Assembly (NCBI GenBank): GCA_028275075.1
Contig: JAQCNK010000083.1
Location: forward strand, 1 to 11,994
From: Haloarcula sp.
GTDB lineage: Archaea; Halobacteriota; Halobacteria; Halobacteriales; Haloarculaceae
DNA length: 11,994 nucleotides
Reading direction: 5' to 3'
This document shows positions 455-11,650 of this stretch, one piece after another. Made by a program: the position numbers and the translations under genes. Within the stretch, counting starts at the first letter, position 1. Each line of letters starts with the position of its first letter. The notes beneath the pieces were generated by a model. That model was not told where the DNA came from. It saw only the letters and a program-made list of their open reading frames with translations, and did no database searches.

Positions 455-585
455 CCAGCGCGGCCGACAAGCGGGAGTCGCTGCCACGTTCAGACTTGGC
501 CGCCCCATCGGTGGGACCCCGTCTGCACGCCCGCCATATCTGCGTGTTGCCCCCTGGCGTCAACGAGGCCGCGACTGTCGAGTCA

Positions 586-665
586 TACGGTCAGTTGTAA
601 GCCATTGCCAGGATTTGCCGGACCCAGCCCGGCAAATCACCGGTAAATCGTTACAACCGACCGTA
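586..665. mobile_element. 80-bp hairpin element type 1 (MITE-like)
   Basis: An almost fully self-complementary 80-bp unit. The outer arms TACGGTCAGTTGTAA (586-600) and TTACAACCGACCGTA (651-665) pair with one mismatch. A short bulge follows, then an inner stem ending in the perfect pair GATTTGCCGG (612-621) and CCGGCAAATC (629-638). It interrupts the glycosyltransferase reading frame: removing it together with one copy of the flanking TCA (583-585 and 666-668) restores TVESVVEGF in frame. This supports insertion with a 3-bp target duplication. No reading frame lies inside, so it would be non-autonomous. It shares ends, length and bulge position with the hairpins at 877 and 2189 but not the rest of the sequence. 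Confidence 0.75.
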
Positions 666-876
666 TCAGTCGTCGAGGGATTTCGCGAGGCGGGGTTCGA
701 GAACGTCCTCGTCATCGATGGCGGGAGCACGGACGACACATATGCCCTAGCCGAGGCCGCCGGCGCTCGCGTCGTTGAGCAGTCCGGCAACGGCACAAGG
801 GACAGGCCGTTCGTGAGGCCGTCGAGTGCTACGTTGAGACGCCGTATGTGTTGATGGCCGATGCCGACGAGACCTA

Positions 877-955
877 TACGGGTCGACAGAAGCCCTGATA
901 GATATTCGCTGGCGTCTGGCGAGCCGAATTCTATCAACCGTTCTGTCGACCCGTA
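877..955. mobile_element. 79-bp hairpin element type 2, copy 1 (MITE-like)
   Basis: A hairpin with outer arms TACGGGTCGACAGAA (877-891) and the exact complement TTCTGTCGACCCGTA (941-955); the pairing extends two bases outward as TA/TA (875-957). After a 4-base mismatched bulge a second stem TGATAGA/TCTATCA follows. It is about 93 percent identical to the copy at 2189-2268 (five substitutions and one indel), in the same orientation. It lies inside the AglJ-type pseudogene exactly where some 25-30 codons are missing, so the insertion was accompanied or followed by a deletion and no clean target duplication can be read. No open reading frame lies inside it. Confidence 0.75.
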
Positions 956-1046
956 TACAAATCTGAAGCGGCTCAACTAGATCGGCAACCATCATCAACG
1001 GGGCGTTCTCGCGCGTTCACGGCCAATACTACGACGGCAGAGAGAT

Positions 1047-1178
1047 ACTGTTGGCGTATCACGCTCTCAACGTGACGGCTACGTCGGCATCTCCACCGAG
1101 AGTACGCACCTGTGCGCGACGCTCGAACATCTGTTCGGGGTGCTGTGGGACAACGGGGAGGCGGTCGCTGACACGTAG
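1047..1178 (+). pseudogene. Orphan C-terminal reading-frame remnant
   Basis: Directly after the glycosyltransferase remnant the good coding frame shifts. It reads TVGVSRSQRDGYVGISTES, then about 24 further residues ending in DNGEAVADT, and stops with TAG at 1176-1178. The segment has the look of a real C-terminus but has no start codon of its own and does not resemble AglJ. I take it as the tail of another truncated gene fused to this site by deletion. I do not recognise its family; a regulator or ligand-binding domain tail is only a guess. Confidence 0.35.
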
Positions 1179-1237
1179 CCCGGGAGCGCTCGGACACTCG
1201 CCGCCCGGCAGGCAGTGCCCGACGCACCATCTCGAAG

Positions 1238-1246
1238 GGCTTATGT
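1238..1246 (+). promoter_or_regulatory. TATA box for the eL43 gene
   Basis: GGCTTATGT with its core CTTATG centred about 31 bases before the ATG at 1273. This spacing fits a haloarchaeal promoter giving a leaderless or very short-leader transcript. There is no Shine-Dalgarno-like sequence before the ATG. Confidence 0.5.
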
Positions 1247-1272
1247 GGACGCTGGGCCGACCAGTGTGTACT

Positions 1273-1551
1273 ATGGCTAGCAACAGCGGAAAGACCGGAA
1301 GCTCCGGCCGATTCGGCGCTCGCTACGGTCGTGTCTCACGACGTCGCGTCGCGGAGATCGAGGCGGAGATGAACGAGGACCACGCCTGCCCGAACTGCGG
1401 CGAGGACAAGGTCGACCGACAGGGTACTGGCATCTGGCAGTGTGGCTACTGCGACTACAAGTACACCGGCGGCTCTTACAAGCCAGAGACGCCCGGTGGC
1501 AAGACTGTCCGTCGCTCCATCCGCGCCGCACTCGCCGAAGACGAGGAATAA
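1273..1551 (+). CDS. rpl37ae: 50S ribosomal protein eL43 (L37Ae)
   Basis: A 92-residue basic protein of the large ribosomal subunit that binds 23S rRNA. It starts at ATG 1273, which gives the family's usual N-terminus [20 protein letters not shown]. It contains the C4 zinc ribbon CPNC (Cys39, Cys42) and CGYC (Cys57, Cys60) followed by the conserved [18 protein letters not shown] segment. A longer in-frame extension upstream exists but runs through pseudogene debris and is not plausible. The RNA polymerase subunit P gene begins 25 bases downstream on the same strand, a known archaeal gene pair, so the two are probably co-transcribed. Identification is confident. Confidence 0.96.
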
Positions 1552-1576
1552 AGGGTCTCGACCTTCATCTGTTACT

Positions 1577-1711
1577 ATGAGCTACAAGTGTTCACGCTGT
1601 AAACGCGACGTAACACTCGATGAGTACGGTGGCGTCCGCTGTCCGTACTGTGGCCACCGCGTGCTACTGAAGGAGCGCTCACCCGACATCAAAGAAGTCG
1701 ACGTCAGGTGA
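1577..1711 (+). CDS. rpoP: DNA-directed RNA polymerase subunit P (Rpb12-like)
   Basis: A 44-residue zinc-ribbon subunit of archaeal RNA polymerase, homologous to eukaryotic Rpb12, which helps hold the Rpo3/Rpo10 platform together. The sequence starts [19 protein letters not shown] and has paired CxxC motifs (Cys5/Cys8 and Cys22/Cys25) and the typical end segment [15 protein letters not shown]. Length is normal for the family. The ATG at 1577 is preferred over an upstream in-frame start because it gives the conserved N-terminus exactly. It follows the eL43 gene by 25 bases and precedes Pcc1 by 77 bases. Confidence 0.95.
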
Positions 1712-1756
1712 TACGGAACGCTGTAGATAGTTTCTGGATGGCGCTGACCCGGGTCG

Positions 1757-1765
1757 GCACATATC
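1757..1765 (+). promoter_or_regulatory. TATA box for pcc1
   Basis: GCACATATC with its core ACATAT about 28 bases before the ATG at 1789, the spacing expected of a leaderless haloarchaeal transcript. This suggests that pcc1 has its own promoter in addition to any read-through from rpoP. Confidence 0.45.
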
Positions 1766-1788
1766 AGTAACCCACTACAACAACCCGT

Positions 1789-2040
1789 ATGACGCCGCCC
1801 CACCGGACTGTTTTCACGCTCGATTACGCTGACAAGCGTCTGGCCCGCCGCGTCGAGCGGAGCCTCCGACCGGAGATCGGCGATATCGAAGGGGACCGGA
1901 CCACAGCATCGCTGACCCGCGAGGGCGCGACGCTGCGCGTGACGGTCGAGGCCGACGATCTCGTCGCACTGCGGGCGGGCTGTAACACGTGGCTGACACT
2001 GACGAGTGTCGCCCAAGCGGAGTATAACGGTAGGCTATAG
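1789..2040 (+). CDS. pcc1: KEOPS complex subunit Pcc1
   Basis: An 83-residue protein matching the Pcc1/Cgi121-partner family. Pcc1 is the dimerisation subunit of KEOPS, the complex that makes N6-threonylcarbamoyladenosine at position 37 of ANN-decoding tRNAs. Visible signs are the alternating strand pattern, the middle segment GATLRVTVEADDLVALRAG and the conserved D57-x3-LRA-x2-N66 helix start. Length is typical for archaea. Position after the eL43 and RpoP genes is the arrangement I know from haloarchaea. In that arrangement a prefoldin beta gene often follows, but no such gene is seen here: the DNA after the stop is non-coding and holds a hairpin element. Confidence 0.85.
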   Translation: MTPPHRTVFTLDYADKRLARRVERSLRPEIGDIEGDRTTASLTREGATLRVTVEADDLVALRAGCNTWLTLTSVAQAEYNGRL

Positions 2041-2188
2041 TTCGTTCAGTCTGTCAGTACCGCTATCATCGAGCTATTGGCAGAGTATGACAGGGGAACG
2101 CACCAGCCGCGAACTGATACTCGGCGTTCCTCATGCGCACATCTCGAAGCAAACCTTGACGCCCCGTGGCTTGATACTGTCGGCTGTA

Positions 2189-2268
2189 TACGGGTCGACA
2201 GAAGCCCTAATAGATATTCGCCGGGGTCTGGCGGAGGCGAATTCTATCAATCGTTCTGTCGACCCGTA
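2189..2268. mobile_element. 80-bp hairpin element type 2, copy 2 (MITE-like)
   Basis: Second copy of the element at 877-955, same orientation, with identical 15-base outer arms TACGGGTCGACAGAA and TTCTGTCGACCCGTA and the same bulge. Its inner stem pairs better than in copy 1: TTCGCC (2217-2222) with GGCGAA (2236-2241) around a 13-base loop. The flanking bases are TA on each side (2187-2188 and 2269-2270), either extra pairing or a 2-bp duplication. It sits in intergenic DNA about 225 bases before the halorhodopsin start. Confidence 0.75.
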
Positions 2269-2283
2269 TAACATCACGGCAGA

Positions 2284-2309
2284 AATCGCCCAGCCCGGGG
2301 TGGGCGATT
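2284..2309. repeat. Short perfect-ended inverted repeat
   Basis: AATCGCCCAGCCC (2284-2296) is followed without a spacer by GGGGTGGGCGATT (2297-2309), complementary except for one position. It lies 15 bases after the type 2 hairpin. It could be a terminator-like structure, a protein-binding palindrome or debris of another insertion. No T-run follows on either strand. Confidence 0.5.
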
Positions 2310-2441
2310 ATCTCCACGTACGTACAGCCAACAGTATGAGTCGGACCCGGGAGATATTGGACCCATTGGCCATATCGGTCGGGAAGCGGTGCTGTTCCCG
2401 GAGTGAGAACACTGGTTCCGAACCGGAAAACCGACGACCGT

Positions 2442-7346: not shown

Positions 7347-10300
7347 TCACGCTTCGAGTTCAGTCTGCCAGTCCCGAACCTGGCTCGCGCTGACGCCCTG
7401 GACTTCGGCGGCGATGACGTCGGCATCGGCCTCCTGTAGGGTCTGCAGGGAGTCCACGCCCGCCGCTTCGAGCTTCTCGGCGGTCGCCCCGCCGATACCG
7501 TTCAGGTCCTCTAACCCCTCGATGGCGTTTCGCGCTCGGTACTCTTCGAAGTTACAGATTGGACAGCCCAACTCCCATGGGTCGTCGCTGTCGGGGTCGA
7601 CGACGAGTTCGGGGAGGTCGTGCTCTTCGCAGAACTCGTCGGTGACCTCGATGTCGCCGTTGCGCGGCAGTGGTAGCGAGTACTCGCAGTCGGGATAGCG
7701 CGTACACCCCACCAGCCGGGAGCCCGAGCGGAGGTGCTTTATCGCTAGCTCACCGTTGTCTGGCTCGTGACAGTCCGGACAGGGCCCGATGACTTCGTCC
7801 TCGCTCTCGTCGGCTTTCTCGGCCTCACAGCGGGGACAGCCATGGACGAACGTGTCCCGGCCGGCGAGCATCTTCACGTGGTGCATCTCGTGGTCCTCAC
7901 ACTCCTCGTCGAGCACGAGCGGTTCACCAGTCGAGGGCAGTGGGAGCGTGTTGCGACACTCCGGGAACCCGTCACAACCGACGAAATATGAGCCCTGGCG
8001 GGAGCGTCTGACGAGCATCGCCTCGCCACACTGCGGGCACGGACCGAGCGTCTTGTCGGCCTTCAGCGACTCTTGGAGGTGTTCGCCAATCTCTTCGCGG
8101 GAGTTTGCGAGTTCGTCGAACACTCGCTGGAGCATCTCGCGGGACTCGTTGGTCACCTCGTCTAAGCTGGCCTCGCCGTTGGCGATGCGGGTCATGTCCG
8201 CTTCGAGTTGGGCCGTCATGTCGTCGCTGACGACGCGGTCGGCGAACTCCTCGGCGGCCTCGACGACAGCCATCGCCAGCGTTGTCGGGCGGGGCGGGTC
8301 GTTCTCGATGTAGCCGCGGTCGTACAGCTTCTCGATGCTGTTGTGGCGGGTCGAGTTGTGGACCACGGCACCACCCTCGACAGCGAAGTTCGGTGCGTTC
8401 TCACTTACTGTGAGGTCGTACACGGGACCGTCGTACTCGCACTCTTCCACGGCCCGGACTGTGGTTGTCGACGGTTCGCCGTGAACTGTCGCGTACACCG
8501 ACTCCTCGAAACCAGTTGCGACGTACTGAACGGTCCGGTTCTCGTCTAGGCTGCGGTTACTGCCCTCGATTCGCTTCTCGACGTGACCGCTCTCGCGCAG
8601 TTCACGGACGTACTTGTTTATACTTCCCTGGCTGACACCGAGCGACTCGGCCAGCGCGGCACTCGTCTTCGGCTCTTCCCGTATCGCTGCCAGAAGCGCC
8701 GCTTTTCTGGTGGTCACCTCGTACGTGGCCAAGGCATCGAGTCCCCGGTAGAACTTCTCGTCCGACGCAATCGGTATCCTGTCGAGGAATCGTTCGAGAT
8801 TCGTCCGGCCACGGATGTGGAGTTTGTGCTGGTCAGGCGCCAGTTTCGTCTCGATACCCATCTCGGCGAGCATCGCCGCCACGCCGGTCAGTAACGTATG
8901 GTCCGTGTTCGAAATGAACGCCTTCCCTTCGCGGGAGATATGCCCCTCGTCGTCGAACAGTGCACCGACGAACGCCGGCCGTACTGCATCCGGAACCACC
9001 GGTGCCCCGTTCTCGGTCACGGTTTCGAGGATGTAGACGAGGGCTCGACCGACTGCCGATGGGATGTCGACCTGATACTTTCGCTTGTGGTGTGATTTCC
9101 GGCCCGGCCGGTCGCTGGCGACTGGTTCGGTATCGAACAGTCGTTCGATATCTCGGGCGAAGCGCTCTATCAACACCGGGTCCGTATTGTGATACCGCAC
9201 GTCGACGACGTTCTCATAGTCGTTACGGTGTATCGAGCCGTCGCCGAGGAGACAGCCGACTACTCGGGCCAACTCCGGCGACCACTCCAGCGGGAACGGG
9301 TTCTCGAAGCTCGTGTCGTAGTTCAGCCCGTGGATTCGGTCCGGACGAATATCGAGTTCGCCGAGCAGCCAGACGGGGACATCCTTCTGTCCCCGCTCGT
9401 ATTTTCCTATCGCCGAGCTGTACGACCCGTATCGGTCGGCGAATTCGGTTTGACTTTCACCACGCGCTTCGCGCTTGGCTGTGAGTTCGGTACCACAGTC
9501 GATACCGTAGAGTTTCGAATCCTTGTCACAGTCCGCCGCAAACGCCTGCCACGAGACGGCCGTTTCGTCGGTCGATTCGACCATCGTCTCCGGTGGTCGA
9601 CGGGCAGCGACGAGTTCGGTTCCGGTATCGACTTCCGACGCCGGACGGACAGTGACCGCTTCCCCTTGTCGGACGTACATCGGGTGGTCGTCGGTAACCG
9701 TCATCGTCCCCCGAGGGGTTACGACTGTACGCACGTCCTCATCGTCGTCCAGTGACCGCTCGCTGACTAGTGTCGACTCCTGTTCGGCGAGCGTTCCGAC
9801 CTGCTCGTCCAGCGAGAGTACCGTCGGTGTCTCCTCGGTGGCTGCGATATCCGTGTCACCGTCGGCGAGGACGACCTGTCCGTCGTCGAAGACCGAAGCG
9901 ACGTTCCGACGCTCGATATCCCCCTCTGGGGACCTGACGAGGACGTTCGTATCCGCAGTAAGGCACTTGGTTCCCAGCCCCTTCTTCTCCATGGTCTCGA
10001 TGAGCCGTGACTGCCCGTAGCGACGGGGTGGCTGGGTCTGCTTGGCTTCAAGCCTGACCTCGGACATCGCCAGCTCCTCACCCTCGCTGACATCGGGGAC
10101 GTGGTTTTCGCTGGCGCTGGAATAGGGGTAGACGGCGTGGTAGCCCGGTTCGACCAGGCGCTTGCCGTTGGCCTTCAGCGAGCGGCCGGCGGCCTCAGCG
10201 ACGACGCGCAGCCGTTCCCAGGTCGCGGCGTCGGCGACTGTCGCGAAGAACCGCCGGACGACGAGTTCGTACACGTCCCATTCGTCCTCAGAGAGCTCCG

Positions 10301-11441
10301 ATTTCGGGGGGAGCTCGCCGGTCGGGTGGATGGGCGGATGGTCGGTGGTCTCCTCGTCGCCCTCGGTAGCGACGATCTCGTCCTGTTCGAGCAGCGACTC
10401 GGCGTCCTCACCGAAGTCCGGTGAGCTGACGAAGGCATCGAGCAGTTCGTCCTCCTCTAGATCCTCGGGATAGACGGTGTTGTCCGTGCGCGGGTAGGTC
10501 ATGTAGCCCGCGGTGTACAGCTCCTCGGCGATGGACATCGCCCGCTGGGCGGAGTAGCCAAGCGAACTGGCCGCAGAGATAAACGCAGTCGTGTTGAACG
10601 GCGCTGGCGGGTTGTCCGTTCGGGTACGTCGGCGGACGCTGGTGACCGTCGCCGCGTCAACTTCCCGGAGGTCAGCGTCGGCCGCATCAGCGGCGTCCTC
10701 GTCCCAGACGCGCTCGGCTTCGCTGCCGTCGTCGTCATAGAAGTACTGGGCCTCGAAGGTCGATTCGTCTTTCGTGAGGTCGGCGAAGATCTCCCAGTAG
10801 TCCTCCGGATCGAACGCCTGAATCTCCCGTTCGCGATCGACGATGAGCTTCAGCGTTGGTGACTGGACCCGACCCACGGAGATGAAGTCATCGCCCAGCT
10901 GTCGCGCCGAAAGGGAGAGAAAACGGGTGAGTGCGGCACCCCACACCAGGTCGATTATCTGGCGCGCCTCGCCCGCAGCCGCGAGGTCAAAATCGATGTC
11001 GTCCGGGTCGGCGAACGCCTCCCGGACCTCGCGTTCGGTGATGGATGAGAACCGCACGCGCGAAACGGGCATGTCTGTCACTTCGCGGATGAGCTCGTAT
11101 GCCTCCTTGCCGATGAGCTCCCCCTCCCGGTCGTAGTCAGTCGCGATGATGGCGCTCTCTGTCTTGCGGGCTAACTGCTTGAGCGTGGTGACGATGTTCT
11201 CCTGGGTCGCCTCCTTGGTGACCTCAGCGTCGATGAGTTCCACCGGCTCGACGTCGCGCCAGTCGTTGTACTCCGGCGGGAAGTCGACGCCGACGACGTG
11301 GCCCGACAGGCCGATGACGCGCTTGGTCCCCCAGCGGTAGACGTTGACCCCATTTCGCCGTTCGGCCGAGGCGCTGCCCTCCGAAAGAATATCTGCGATT
11401 CGCCTGGCGGCGTTGTCCTTCTCCGTGATAATTAGCTCCAT
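7347..11441 (-). CDS. topA: DNA topoisomerase I (type IA) containing an intein
   Basis: A 1364-residue precursor; after splicing the mature enzyme would be 827 residues. It relaxes negative supercoils by single-strand passage through a 5'-phosphotyrosine. The N-terminal Toprim domain shows TEKD (Glu7) and TDYDREGE (101-108) for Mg2+. The catalytic tyrosine is Tyr316 in MTYPRTDN. The core is interrupted after Lys492 by an intein (493-1029) and resumes as STRHNSIEKLYDRGYI. The C-terminus has Cys-rich zinc modules: C1135/C1138/C1156/C1162, CxxH/CxxC at 1181-1205, C1221/C1224/C1246/C1252 and CxxH/CxxC at 1271-1296. A helix-hairpin-helix domain (about 1308-1360) follows. ATG at 11441 is chosen from the family start MELIITEKDNAARR and a Shine-Dalgarno AGGTGG six bases upstream. 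Confidence 0.95.
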   Translation of the reverse strand: MELIITEKDNAARRIADILSEGSASAERRNGVNVYRWGTKRVIGLSGHVVGVDFPPEYNDWRDVEPVELIDAEVTKEATQENIVTTLKQLARKTESAIIATDYDREGELIGKEAYELIREVTDMPVSRVRFSSITEREVREAFADPDDIDFDLAAAGEARQIIDLVWGAALTRFLSLSARQLGDDFISVGRVQSPTLKLIVDREREIQAFDPEDYWEIFADLTKDESTFEAQYFYDDDGSEAERVWDEDAADAADADLREVDAATVTSVRRRTRTDNPPAPFNTTAFISAASSLGYSAQRAMSIAEELYTAGYMTYPRTDNTVYPEDLEEDELLDAFVSSPDFGEDAESLLEQDEIVATEGDEETTDHPPIHPTGELPPKSELSEDEWDVYELVVRRFFATVADAATWERLRVVAEAAGRSLKANGKRLVEPGYHAVYPYSSASENHVPDVSEGEELAMSEVRLEAKQTQPPRRYGQSRLIETMEKKGLGTKCLTADTNVLVRSPEGDIERRNVASVFDDGQVVLADGDTDIAATEETPTVLSLDEQVGTLAEQESTLVSERSLDDDEDVRTVVTPRGTMTVTDDHPMYVRQGEAVTVRPASEVDTGTELVAARRPPETMVESTDETAVSWQAFAADCDKDSKLYGIDCGTELTAKREARGESQTEFADRYGSYSSAIGKYERGQKDVPVWLLGELDIRPDRIHGLNYDTSFENPFPLEWSPELARVVGCLLGDGSIHRNDYENVVDVRYHNTDPVLIERFARDIERLFDTEPVASDRPGRKSHHKRKYQVDIPSAVGRALVYILETVTENGAPVVPDAVRPAFVGALFDDEGHISREGKAFISNTDHTLLTGVAAMLAEMGIETKLAPDQHKLHIRGRTNLERFLDRIPIASDEKFYRGLDALATYEVTTRKAALLAAIREEPKTSAALAESLGVSQGSINKYVRELRESGHVEKRIEGSNRSLDENRTVQYVATGFEESVYATVHGEPSTTTVRAVEECEYDGPVYDLTVSENAPNFAVEGGAVVHNSTRHNSIEKLYDRGYIENDPPRPTTLAMAVVEAAEEFADRVVSDDMTAQLEADMTRIANGEASLDEVTNESREMLQRVFDELANSREEIGEHLQESLKADKTLGPCPQCGEAMLVRRSRQGSYFVGCDGFPECRNTLPLPSTGEPLVLDEECEDHEMHHVKMLAGRDTFVHGCPRCEAEKADESEDEVIGPCPDCHEPDNGELAIKHLRSGSRLVGCTRYPDCEYSLPLPRNGDIEVTDEFCEEHDLPELVVDPDSDDPWELGCPICNFEEYRARNAIEGLEDLNGIGGATAEKLEAAGVDSLQTLQEADADVIAAEVQGVSASQVRDWQTELEA
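8355..9965 (-). mobile_element. TopA intein with LAGLIDADG homing endonuclease
   Basis: A 537-residue protein intron coded inside topA, residues 493-1029. Splicing residues are Cys1 (start CLTADTNVLVRSPEG), block B TDDH (Thr583, His586), block F VYDLTVSENAPNFAV and the terminal VVHN followed by Ser+1, so self-splicing looks intact. The middle holds a LAGLIDADG-type endonuclease with two motifs, VVGCLLGDGSI (727-737) and FVGALFDDEGHI (824-835); both acidic residues are kept, so it may still be active. An Xre-like helix-turn-helix (about 653-690) precedes the endonuclease and a winged-helix-like segment (about 910-957, AALAESLGVSQGSINKYVRE) follows it. Insertion is at the conserved GLGTK/STRHN site of the enzyme core. 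I recall a TopA intein catalogued in Haloarcula; the domain reading is mine. Confidence 0.94.
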
Positions 11442-11447
11442 CGGACA

Positions 11448-11497
11448 CCACCTGTCGTACTCATCATGGGTCGCTACGCTCGGAGTCGTTCTAAAGA
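11448..11497 (-). promoter_or_regulatory. topA promoter and Shine-Dalgarno site
   Basis: On the minus strand a TATA-like TCTTTAGA (11490-11497) lies about 52 bases before the ATG, which predicts a leader of roughly 25 bases. AGGTGG (11448-11453) lies six bases before the ATG. Unlike most other genes here, topA therefore seems to have a leader with a ribosome binding site. Confidence 0.45.
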
Positions 11498-11533
11498 CTT
11501 TCGGGGAAATGAGCCTCAGCGCGAGCGTGCCAG

Positions 11534-11553
11534 CGCACGCCCCCGCGCGTGCG
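11534..11553. repeat. GC-rich hairpin between topA and the membrane gene
   Basis: CGCACGC (11534-11540) pairs perfectly with GCGTGCG (11547-11553) around a six-base loop. It lies in the divergent intergenic region of about 210 bases, upstream of the topA TATA box. No other gene or element is seen there. Confidence 0.4.
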
Positions 11554-11650
11554 AGAGCCACACTGACGGTGGCGTCCTCGTCGCCGGCGAAAGGTGAACG
11601 CTGGCGGTGCCATCCGACGGGCTCTTGTCGCCGCGACCCGCAGTGCCGGT

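Follow-up and report, generated by a model that had tools for sequence, protein, structure and literature searches.

Short hairpin repeats of a Haloarcula genome as probable minimal mobile elements of IS630-family insertion sequences

Stowaway elements are hairpin-like, TA-duplicating miniature inverted-repeat transposable elements (MITEs) that are moved by IS630 relatives (Tc1/mariner); they are eukaryotic and longer than the repeats considered here. RUP of pneumococcus has been proposed, in the accessible portion of PMC2229807, to be moved by IS630-Spn1, and the IS630-Tc1-mariner group is described as TA-duplicating, with Sailor (TATA) an exception, in the part of PMC8533490 on which we draw. 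According to the available text of PMC3119063, SMR-A, one of the Small Mobile Repeats (SMRs) of Haloquadratum walsbyi, inserts into palindromic elements, and PATE/IS200-IS605 elements have neither inverted terminal repeats nor target duplications. Here we describe short hairpins in a stretch of 11,994 nucleotides of Haloarcula sp. (contig JAQCNK010000083.1; hereafter the window), a single contig from a haloarchaeal draft assembly of 2.06 Mb, 373 contigs and 71.6% completeness. Comparison of copies, insertion sites and ends makes it very probable that these hairpins are minimal, non-autonomous MITEs in which the left and right ends of an IS630-family insertion sequence (IS) are joined through a short palindromic core.

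Three units on the forward strand, at 586-665 (type 1, 80 bp), 877-955 (type 2, copy A, 79 bp) and 2189-2268 (type 2, copy B, 80 bp), start with TACGG and stop with CCGTA. Their 15-bp outer arms pair with one mismatch in type 1 and none in type 2, and GCC comes next on the left side as the start of a bulge. The two type 2 copies are five substitutions and one indel apart, as read from the sequence. These features had been recorded in the initial annotation and are confirmed, as is its suggestion of a mobile hairpin MITE: the units are multi-copy, have empty sites and are flanked by target duplications of 2 bp or 3 bp as made by a DDE transposase. The annotation further proposed to look for empty sites, for additional copies by covariance model and for a transposase with matching ends; empty sites and additional copies were found, as were transposases with matching TAC ends, and all are detailed below.

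The first two units interrupt a glycosyltransferase pseudogene (539-1039, forward strand) that was delimited by alignment to homologous same-genus DNA. The gene is an open reading frame (ORF) in relative L229 and is presumably AglJ/dolichyl-phosphate mannosyltransferase-like; the window piece 669-852 is without a Pfam match. Nineteen homologous loci were fetched, one of which (L245) matches the hairpin only; eight can be aligned with both flanks of 586-665, and none of these eight has the element. At this site the window reads GTCGAGTCA, the 80-bp unit and then TCAGTCGTC, with TCA at 583-585 and again at 666-668, whereas relative L232 reads GAGTCAGTC with one TCA only (uninterrupted letters in the fuller comparison, ATCGAGTCAGTC). 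Copy A interrupts this pseudogene as well, at GACGAGACCTA; the corresponding letters in relatives are GACGAGACGTA. It is flanked by TA at 875-876 and at 956-957; about 93 bp of target present in L229 are missing to its right with the TA flank kept, possibly through a later or coupled deletion. Copy B, flanked by TA at 2187-2188 and 2269-2270, is nested in a type 3 hairpin (2175-2336, forward strand) that is itself flanked by TGA (2172-2174 and 2337-2339). Once the insert and one TA are removed this type 3 unit is 80 bp long, and intact type 3 copies occur elsewhere in the genome. A nested empty site was also found in C220.

The elements are abundant in the draft genome. The type 2 arm, the 15-mer TACGGGTCGACAGAA, was matched with up to two mismatches by 122 + 127 = 249 arms, against 0 + 0 for the reversed control, and at two arms per copy this corresponds to about 125 type 2 copies. 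At least 40 copies share at least 93% identity, from 162 first-look candidates, and type 1 has at least 39 further matches on the genome's own contigs, some of them partial. A scan for hairpins of the form TAC...GTA in 61 contigs (538 kb) returned 120, against 3 in a mononucleotide shuffle; control trinucleotides gave 33 (ACT, largely the same hairpins shifted), 11 (ATC), 8 (CAT), 7 (TCA) and 6 (CTA). Five of the 120 belong to no type, and the others sort into five types by outer arm: type 1, TACGGTCRGTTGTAA (18 hairpins); type 2, as above (77); type 3, TACTGTYGGCTGTA (5); type 4, TACTGGTGGCTGTA (8); and type 5, TACTGCCGGCTRTA (7). Two further forms, a type 2 sister whose arms read TACTGGTCGACAGAA and a 108-bp type 6, occur in a genome of another genus. 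Overall, the units are about 70-110 bp long, have perfect or near-perfect 15-bp terminal inverted repeats (TIRs), are multi-copy and contain no transposase gene.

Two variants of type 2 were observed in addition. A recurrent form of 73-74 bp, with about 6 bases gone beside one outer arm, makes up 19 of 82 copies (e.g. L101 2794-2866 and L102 8007-8080). At L086 5709-5855 (contig C22), beside a full type 2 copy, lies a mosaic hairpin whose type 2 outer arm runs into a type 1 interior (AACGATTTACCGG), which suggests recombination between types at the common AACGATT.

The types differ in how widely they occur. Searches of 59 other genomes, a phage collection and a plasmid collection were negative for type 2 at E<=0.01, as was that of the phage collection for type 1. 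Type 4 is present in named plasmids of Haloarcula and Halomicrobium (10 records); three records with type 1 come from Haloarcula sp. JP-L23, Halostella pelagica and Salinibaculum litoreum. For a wider survey, the RNAalifold structure of alignment A1 was poor (12 pairs) and the model R1 built from A1 was set aside; the structure used for model R2, and for the covariation test below, was drawn up manually according to how the window unit folds. At E<=0.001, R2 detected relatives of type 1 in 173 of the 392 Halobacteriales genomes searched, spread over 51 of 95 genera; no more than 11 candidates were scored in any one genome, E-values are rough, and some of the searched genomes had supplied training units. 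In a phylum-wide draw whose share of other orders is unstated, 10 of 196 genomes matched the type 1 model, all 10 in the order of the window. The top load of ten genomes compared was that of G071, from another genus of the same family, with 298 + 298 type 1 arms in 2.4 Mb.

The flanks of these copies are uniform. Type 2 is bounded by an identical 2-mer in 78 of 82 copies (TA 75, TC 2, GA 1). Among 124 scanned hairpins of the other types, 93 have an identical 3-mer on both sides, and 92 of these are TNA (TGA/TCA 85, TAA/TTA 7). When these 92 are oriented on TGA/TAA, C stands at -4 in 60, G at -6 in 50, G at +4 in 44 and C at +6 in 54, giving the symmetric consensus GNC-TSA-GNC; such symmetry is as expected from paired strand transfer. 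Target duplications also bear on an alternative related to the initial annotation, which had likened the units to attC-like sites or hairpin MITEs: a recombinase would act on the hairpin as single-stranded DNA, in an attC-like or Y1/IS200-like manner, and the fold would be selected for mobility. attC sites have R/L boxes and an integron integrase and, like Y1 elements, are not expected to produce target duplications. The clean 2-3 bp duplications found here therefore speak against an attC-like site (R/L boxes and an integron integrase were not searched for), and the 15-bp TIRs together with the duplications likewise set the hairpins apart from PATE/IS200-IS605 elements.

Insertion into other hairpins is frequent. 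The arm of another type (up to three mismatches) was recognized in the joined flanks of 20 of the 82 type 2 copies, against 0.6 per 82 with shuffled flanks. Such nesting, along with a size class of 80-110 bp, inverted ends and high copy number, is shared with the Haloquadratum SMRs in the available text of PMC3119063, and would fit repeats of that kind moved by an agent unrelated to IS630. That same text reports SMRs as without target duplication and with ends unlike any transposon, whereas the present hairpins have both duplications and transposon-like ends, which leaves an unrelated agent highly improbable. Ten of the 20 nested copies, window copy B included, sit at one TA step (TGTA/A) at arm positions 13-14, which appears as a hot spot for type 2 within other hairpins.

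The reading as minimal IS630 elements draws on haloarchaeal IS630-family IS of about 1070-1150 bp that have TAC-type ends and duplications like those of the hairpins. The transposases of L115, L125, L126 and C332, the last from the same draft genome, match NCBIfam NF033545 above cut-off as well as Pfam DDE_3 (one N-terminal piece of the C332 transposase is without a match), and those of L118 and L120 were assigned by DDE_3 only. L118 has the left end TACGGTCGTGCGAAAATATTTGCCAGTG and the right end TACGGTCGTGCGTTAGTTTTTACCGGTGATT with a TCA duplication, to be compared with the type 1 right half TACGGTCGGTTGTAACGATTTACCGGTGATT. L125 has the right end TACTCACCGACAGAGATATTGATAGATTC and a TA duplication, its type 2 counterpart being TACGGGTCGACAGAACGATTGATAGAATTC. 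Three plasmid relatives of L125 whose ends are readable, in Halorubrum ezzemoulense, Natrinema sp. SYSU A 869 and Natrinema zhouii, likewise show a TA duplication and the GACAGA..TATTGATA block; a fourth, in Halococcus dombrowskii, has no convincing ends.

Hairpin halves were compared with IS left ends (LE) and right ends (RE) over positions 4-28 with 1000 shuffles, and the p values are uncorrected for the number of comparisons. Type 1 matches the L118 clade at 15/25 positions with LE (p=0.004) and 18/25 with RE (p=0.002). Type 2 matches the L125 clade at 15/25 (p=0.002) and 17/25 (p<0.001), both with RE. Types 3, 4, 5 and 6 each match the main TNA clade with one half at 17-19/25 (p<0.001). 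The best half of each type is thus closest to one clade, type 1 to L118, type 2 to L125 and types 3-6 to the main clade; only type 1 shows a clear polar match, its left half going with LE and its right half with RE. The class of duplication agrees between hairpins and IS: TA for type 2 and the L125 clade, TNA for type 1 and the L118 clade, and TNA for types 3-6 and the main clade. A strict TA rule describes type 2, the L125 clade and a TAG-ended TA clade, and it does not describe types 1 and 3-6 or their IS. This correspondence between ends and duplication length also counts against a single-stranded recombinase substrate.

The duplication classes of the IS themselves rest on the following loci. 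In the L118 clade, of which 22 loci were examined from 30 returned, all 12 with resolvable ends have TNA; one locus (L374) was left out of the end table. Among 80 IS630 loci from named genomes, the best of 221 relatives, 38 have TAC ends and a duplication, 33 of them of 3 bp, all TNA, and five TA; one of the 33 (L277) is probably a false pairing and was excluded from the end-identity and end-similarity tests. The main clade comprises 19 distinct end pairs, two of them from outside the 80 loci. TNA duplications of such uniformity are not expected by chance. For a tree of the DDE domain, 108 of 111 loci had a DDE match; removing 30 loci without resolved ends and four oddly labelled ones, and merging duplicates, left 55 rows. 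In this tree, whose bootstrap was unsettled and which carried a long-branch warning, a single clade (100/99) takes in 22 of the 24 TNA rows and one TA-labelled row whose protein is identical to that of a TNA row, and the remaining TNA rows, L118 and L122, stand apart on a long branch. The TAG-ended TA elements form a clade (100/100), as do L125, L276 and L277 (100/99). The window's own genome has one main-clade IS630, at C332:1188-2256, with a TCA duplication.

Several points weigh against the IS630 reading, beginning with the uncorrected p values given above. The likeness of the hairpins to IS630 ends is partial, at 15-19 of 25 positions. Off-diagonal cells of the end table reach p 0.001, 0.007 and 0.008, and the second half of type 6 fits the L118 clade (p 0.001) better than the main clade. 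In a separate test with 300 shuffles the weaker half fell short, at p 0.08, 0.07, 0.06, 0.42 and 0.04 for types 1-5 and 0.04 for type 6; type 3 had p 0.010 in its better half. Of the 12 resolved L118-clade elements, four start with TAC and eight with TAG. Many of the 80 loci are near copies from few genomes, largely Natribaculum breve and Halospeciosus flavus. Other start triplets also pair often on these 80 loci (35 loci with ACT, which are the same ends shifted, and 29 with CGA, at a median of 8, vs 38 with TAC), so single end assignments are unsure, and an end search without preset start letters was mostly noise (TAC in 4/80 best pairs, TAG in 12/80). Within the draft, which is 71.6% complete, PF13358 and L118 protein searches led to one element, and no IS630 bearing type 1 or type 2 ends turned up. 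IS630 ends are, moreover, without the palindromic inner core: left/right identity at positions 25-38 is 0.21, and best-shift identity at positions 25-36 is 0.46 vs 0.43 shuffled, against 0.50-0.92 in the hairpins (types 2 and 6 reach only 0.50-0.58). Plain end-to-end fusion consequently leaves part of the structure unexplained. The inner palindrome may come from template switching at the birth of the minimal element, or may aid movement.

Autonomous partners were sought in further ways. Single arms and long-range arm pairs in the 61 contigs yielded hairpins, variants and a few chance pairs, and no autonomous element with type 2 arms. The complete chromosome G034 has 38 + 35 type 1 arms, and no pair at IS length was seen by eye. 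The IS5 family (PF01609) was also considered as a partner and was rejected after five genomes had been searched and the ends of 30 returned loci examined. In G034, a DDE_Tnp_1 (PF01609) IS at L188 1007-2498 separates the two halves of a type 5 arm pair that is bordered by TCA at either outer side; since the other four copies of this 458-amino-acid protein (L177, L181, L185 and L191) are without such flanks, L188 is taken as an IS inserted into a hairpin.

Under the IS630 reading, a transposase related to Tc1/mariner would act in trans on an element of little beyond its two ends. Two regions would be bound at each end, the outer 15 bp and a block lying about 19-29 bp inward, and the element would be cut out and pasted at TA (type 2) or at TNA, mostly TGA/TCA (types 1 and 3-6), with two or three bases duplicated. 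The asymmetric bulge (GCC left, CGATT right) plausibly reflects the difference between left-end and right-end sequence. That stems differ between types yet stay paired would be due mainly to the need for a single transposase to fit both ends, an explanation that does not extend to the inner palindrome.

The folds were assessed on their own. On both strands the three initially annotated units fold better than 200 of 200 dinucleotide shuffles (z-scores -6.8 to -10.3 as RNA and -7.3 to -8.9 as DNA). Among 37 diverse type-1-like units, changes on both sides were found in 20 of 33 pairs and in 98 cells; shuffles gave 13.9 pairs and 37.5 cells, and sliding the structure gave no more than 15 and 58. 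The earlier observation that stems differ yet stay paired is thereby upheld between units. Strong folds on both strands, covariation that includes the inner stem, an asymmetric bulge at a fixed place and an inner palindrome missing from IS630 ends would all suit a single-stranded recombinase substrate. Within type 2, to which the within-type mutation analysis was confined, the compensatory pattern was not recovered: 53 copies of 79 or 80 bp have 72 one-sided pair changes, 27 of them still standard pairs, one double change that is unpaired, and no compensatory change. Per-site mutation is 0.022 and 0.024 in stems and 0.026 and 0.030 in loops. Outer-arm rates are lower (0.011-0.013 vs 0.029-0.035), a figure biased downward because arm-based copy searches favour copies with intact arms. 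As stems mutate about as fast as loops and compensatory changes are absent, folding of type 2 is not kept up after insertion, and the selection on a folded single strand that had been proposed is not supported in resident copies. Outer arms would covary without any folding, since both ends must fit one transposase, and arm covariation of a mobile inverted repeat is by itself no evidence for a functional fold. Taken with the duplications and the IS630-like ends, we regard a single-stranded DNA substrate as very unlikely, and joined IS630 ends remain the favoured reading.

Insertion sites show a preference for gene ends. Gene calls were greedy longest ORFs, with 35 of the 93 duplicated sites inside called ORFs, some of them spurious, and the background comprised TGA/TCA only, whereas TAA, TTA or CTC accounts for 8 of the 93. 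On this basis, 26 of 93 sites coincide with the stop codon of a called gene, vs 60 of 2250 nearby TGA/TCA; for sites outside genes only, the counts are 26/58 vs 60/572 (odds ratio 6.9, p 7e-10). Insertion at a TGA stop leaves the gene whole because TGA is a TNA target and gets duplicated. The roughly sevenfold excess may reflect targeting or purifying selection, two readings that this test does not separate. The excess, together with the long stable stems, is also what structured 3' RNAs or transcription terminators retained at gene ends would show. There is, against this, no Rfam match at gathering scores; units also lie inside genes, as in the window glycosyltransferase, resident type 2 stems are as mutable as loops, and one genome holds at least 40 copies of high identity. 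Retained RNAs or terminators are thus an extremely improbable source of these units. A broader and doubtful extension of the IS630 reading is that haloarchaeal IS630 branches moved from the TA rule to 3-bp TNA, that insertion at stop codons serves as a built-in safe harbour, given that haloarchaeal genes often end in a final-C codon followed by TGA, and that hairpins would thereby have spread into 3' untranslated regions order-wide, with the core palindrome retained by active source copies to serve transposition or transcript tolerance.

A further unit in the window, which with the type 3 hairpin brings two beyond those initially annotated, stands at such a position. A degenerate, putatively old type-1-like hairpin of 78 bp (1712-1789, forward strand) lies between rpoP and pcc1, and its left flank copy TGA (1709-1711, forward strand) is the rpoP stop codon; the right copy is at 1790-1792 on the same strand. 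It was first spotted by the scan and scores 57.6 bits (E 3e-14) with model R2, among whose 37 training rows it is itself included. The start codon ATG of pcc1 takes its A from the last base of this unit and TG from the TGA flank copy. Elsewhere in the window, at 7347-11561 on the reverse strand, a DNA topoisomerase I gene is split by an insert that resembles an intein and matches LAGLIDADG, HTH and splicing domains.

We found no account of these hairpins in the literature searched; ISfinder and subscription papers were outside the search, and the TNA branches may be catalogued there. For an abundant haloarchaeal repeat superfamily without a description in that literature, a likely driver is named here. 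The same candidate can be tested for SMR-like repeats, the mobilisation of which is called enigmatic in the accessible part of PMC3119063. The TNA-duplicating IS630 branches would represent natural variation in cut spacing within a family usually defined by the TA rule.

MITEs of IS630 are already known in RUP, and the 3-bp TNA branches depart from the described TA rule. In the portion of PMC2229807 available, RUP resembles the present hairpins as a non-coding repeat of about 100 bp in about 100 copies, with IS630-like ends, insertion at TA and insertion into other mobile elements. Unlike RUP, most hairpin types duplicate 3-bp TNA, the whole element is a two-end hairpin with a palindromic core, and the hosts are archaeal, with several types on one plan. 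The TA duplication of Stowaway is common to type 2 only. Correia/NEMIS, as presented in the same portion of PMC2229807, are likewise short elements with TIRs, TA at the ends and transcripts forming long stem-loops, but they are bacterial and are likened here by description only. Closest in host are SMR-A and SMR-B of H. walsbyi, which are haloarchaeal, 80-110 bp long, with inverted ends and many copies. In the available text of PMC3119063 they are reported without target duplications or a related transposon, a definition that does not describe the present hairpins, so that the two groups are set apart by description, not by sequence.

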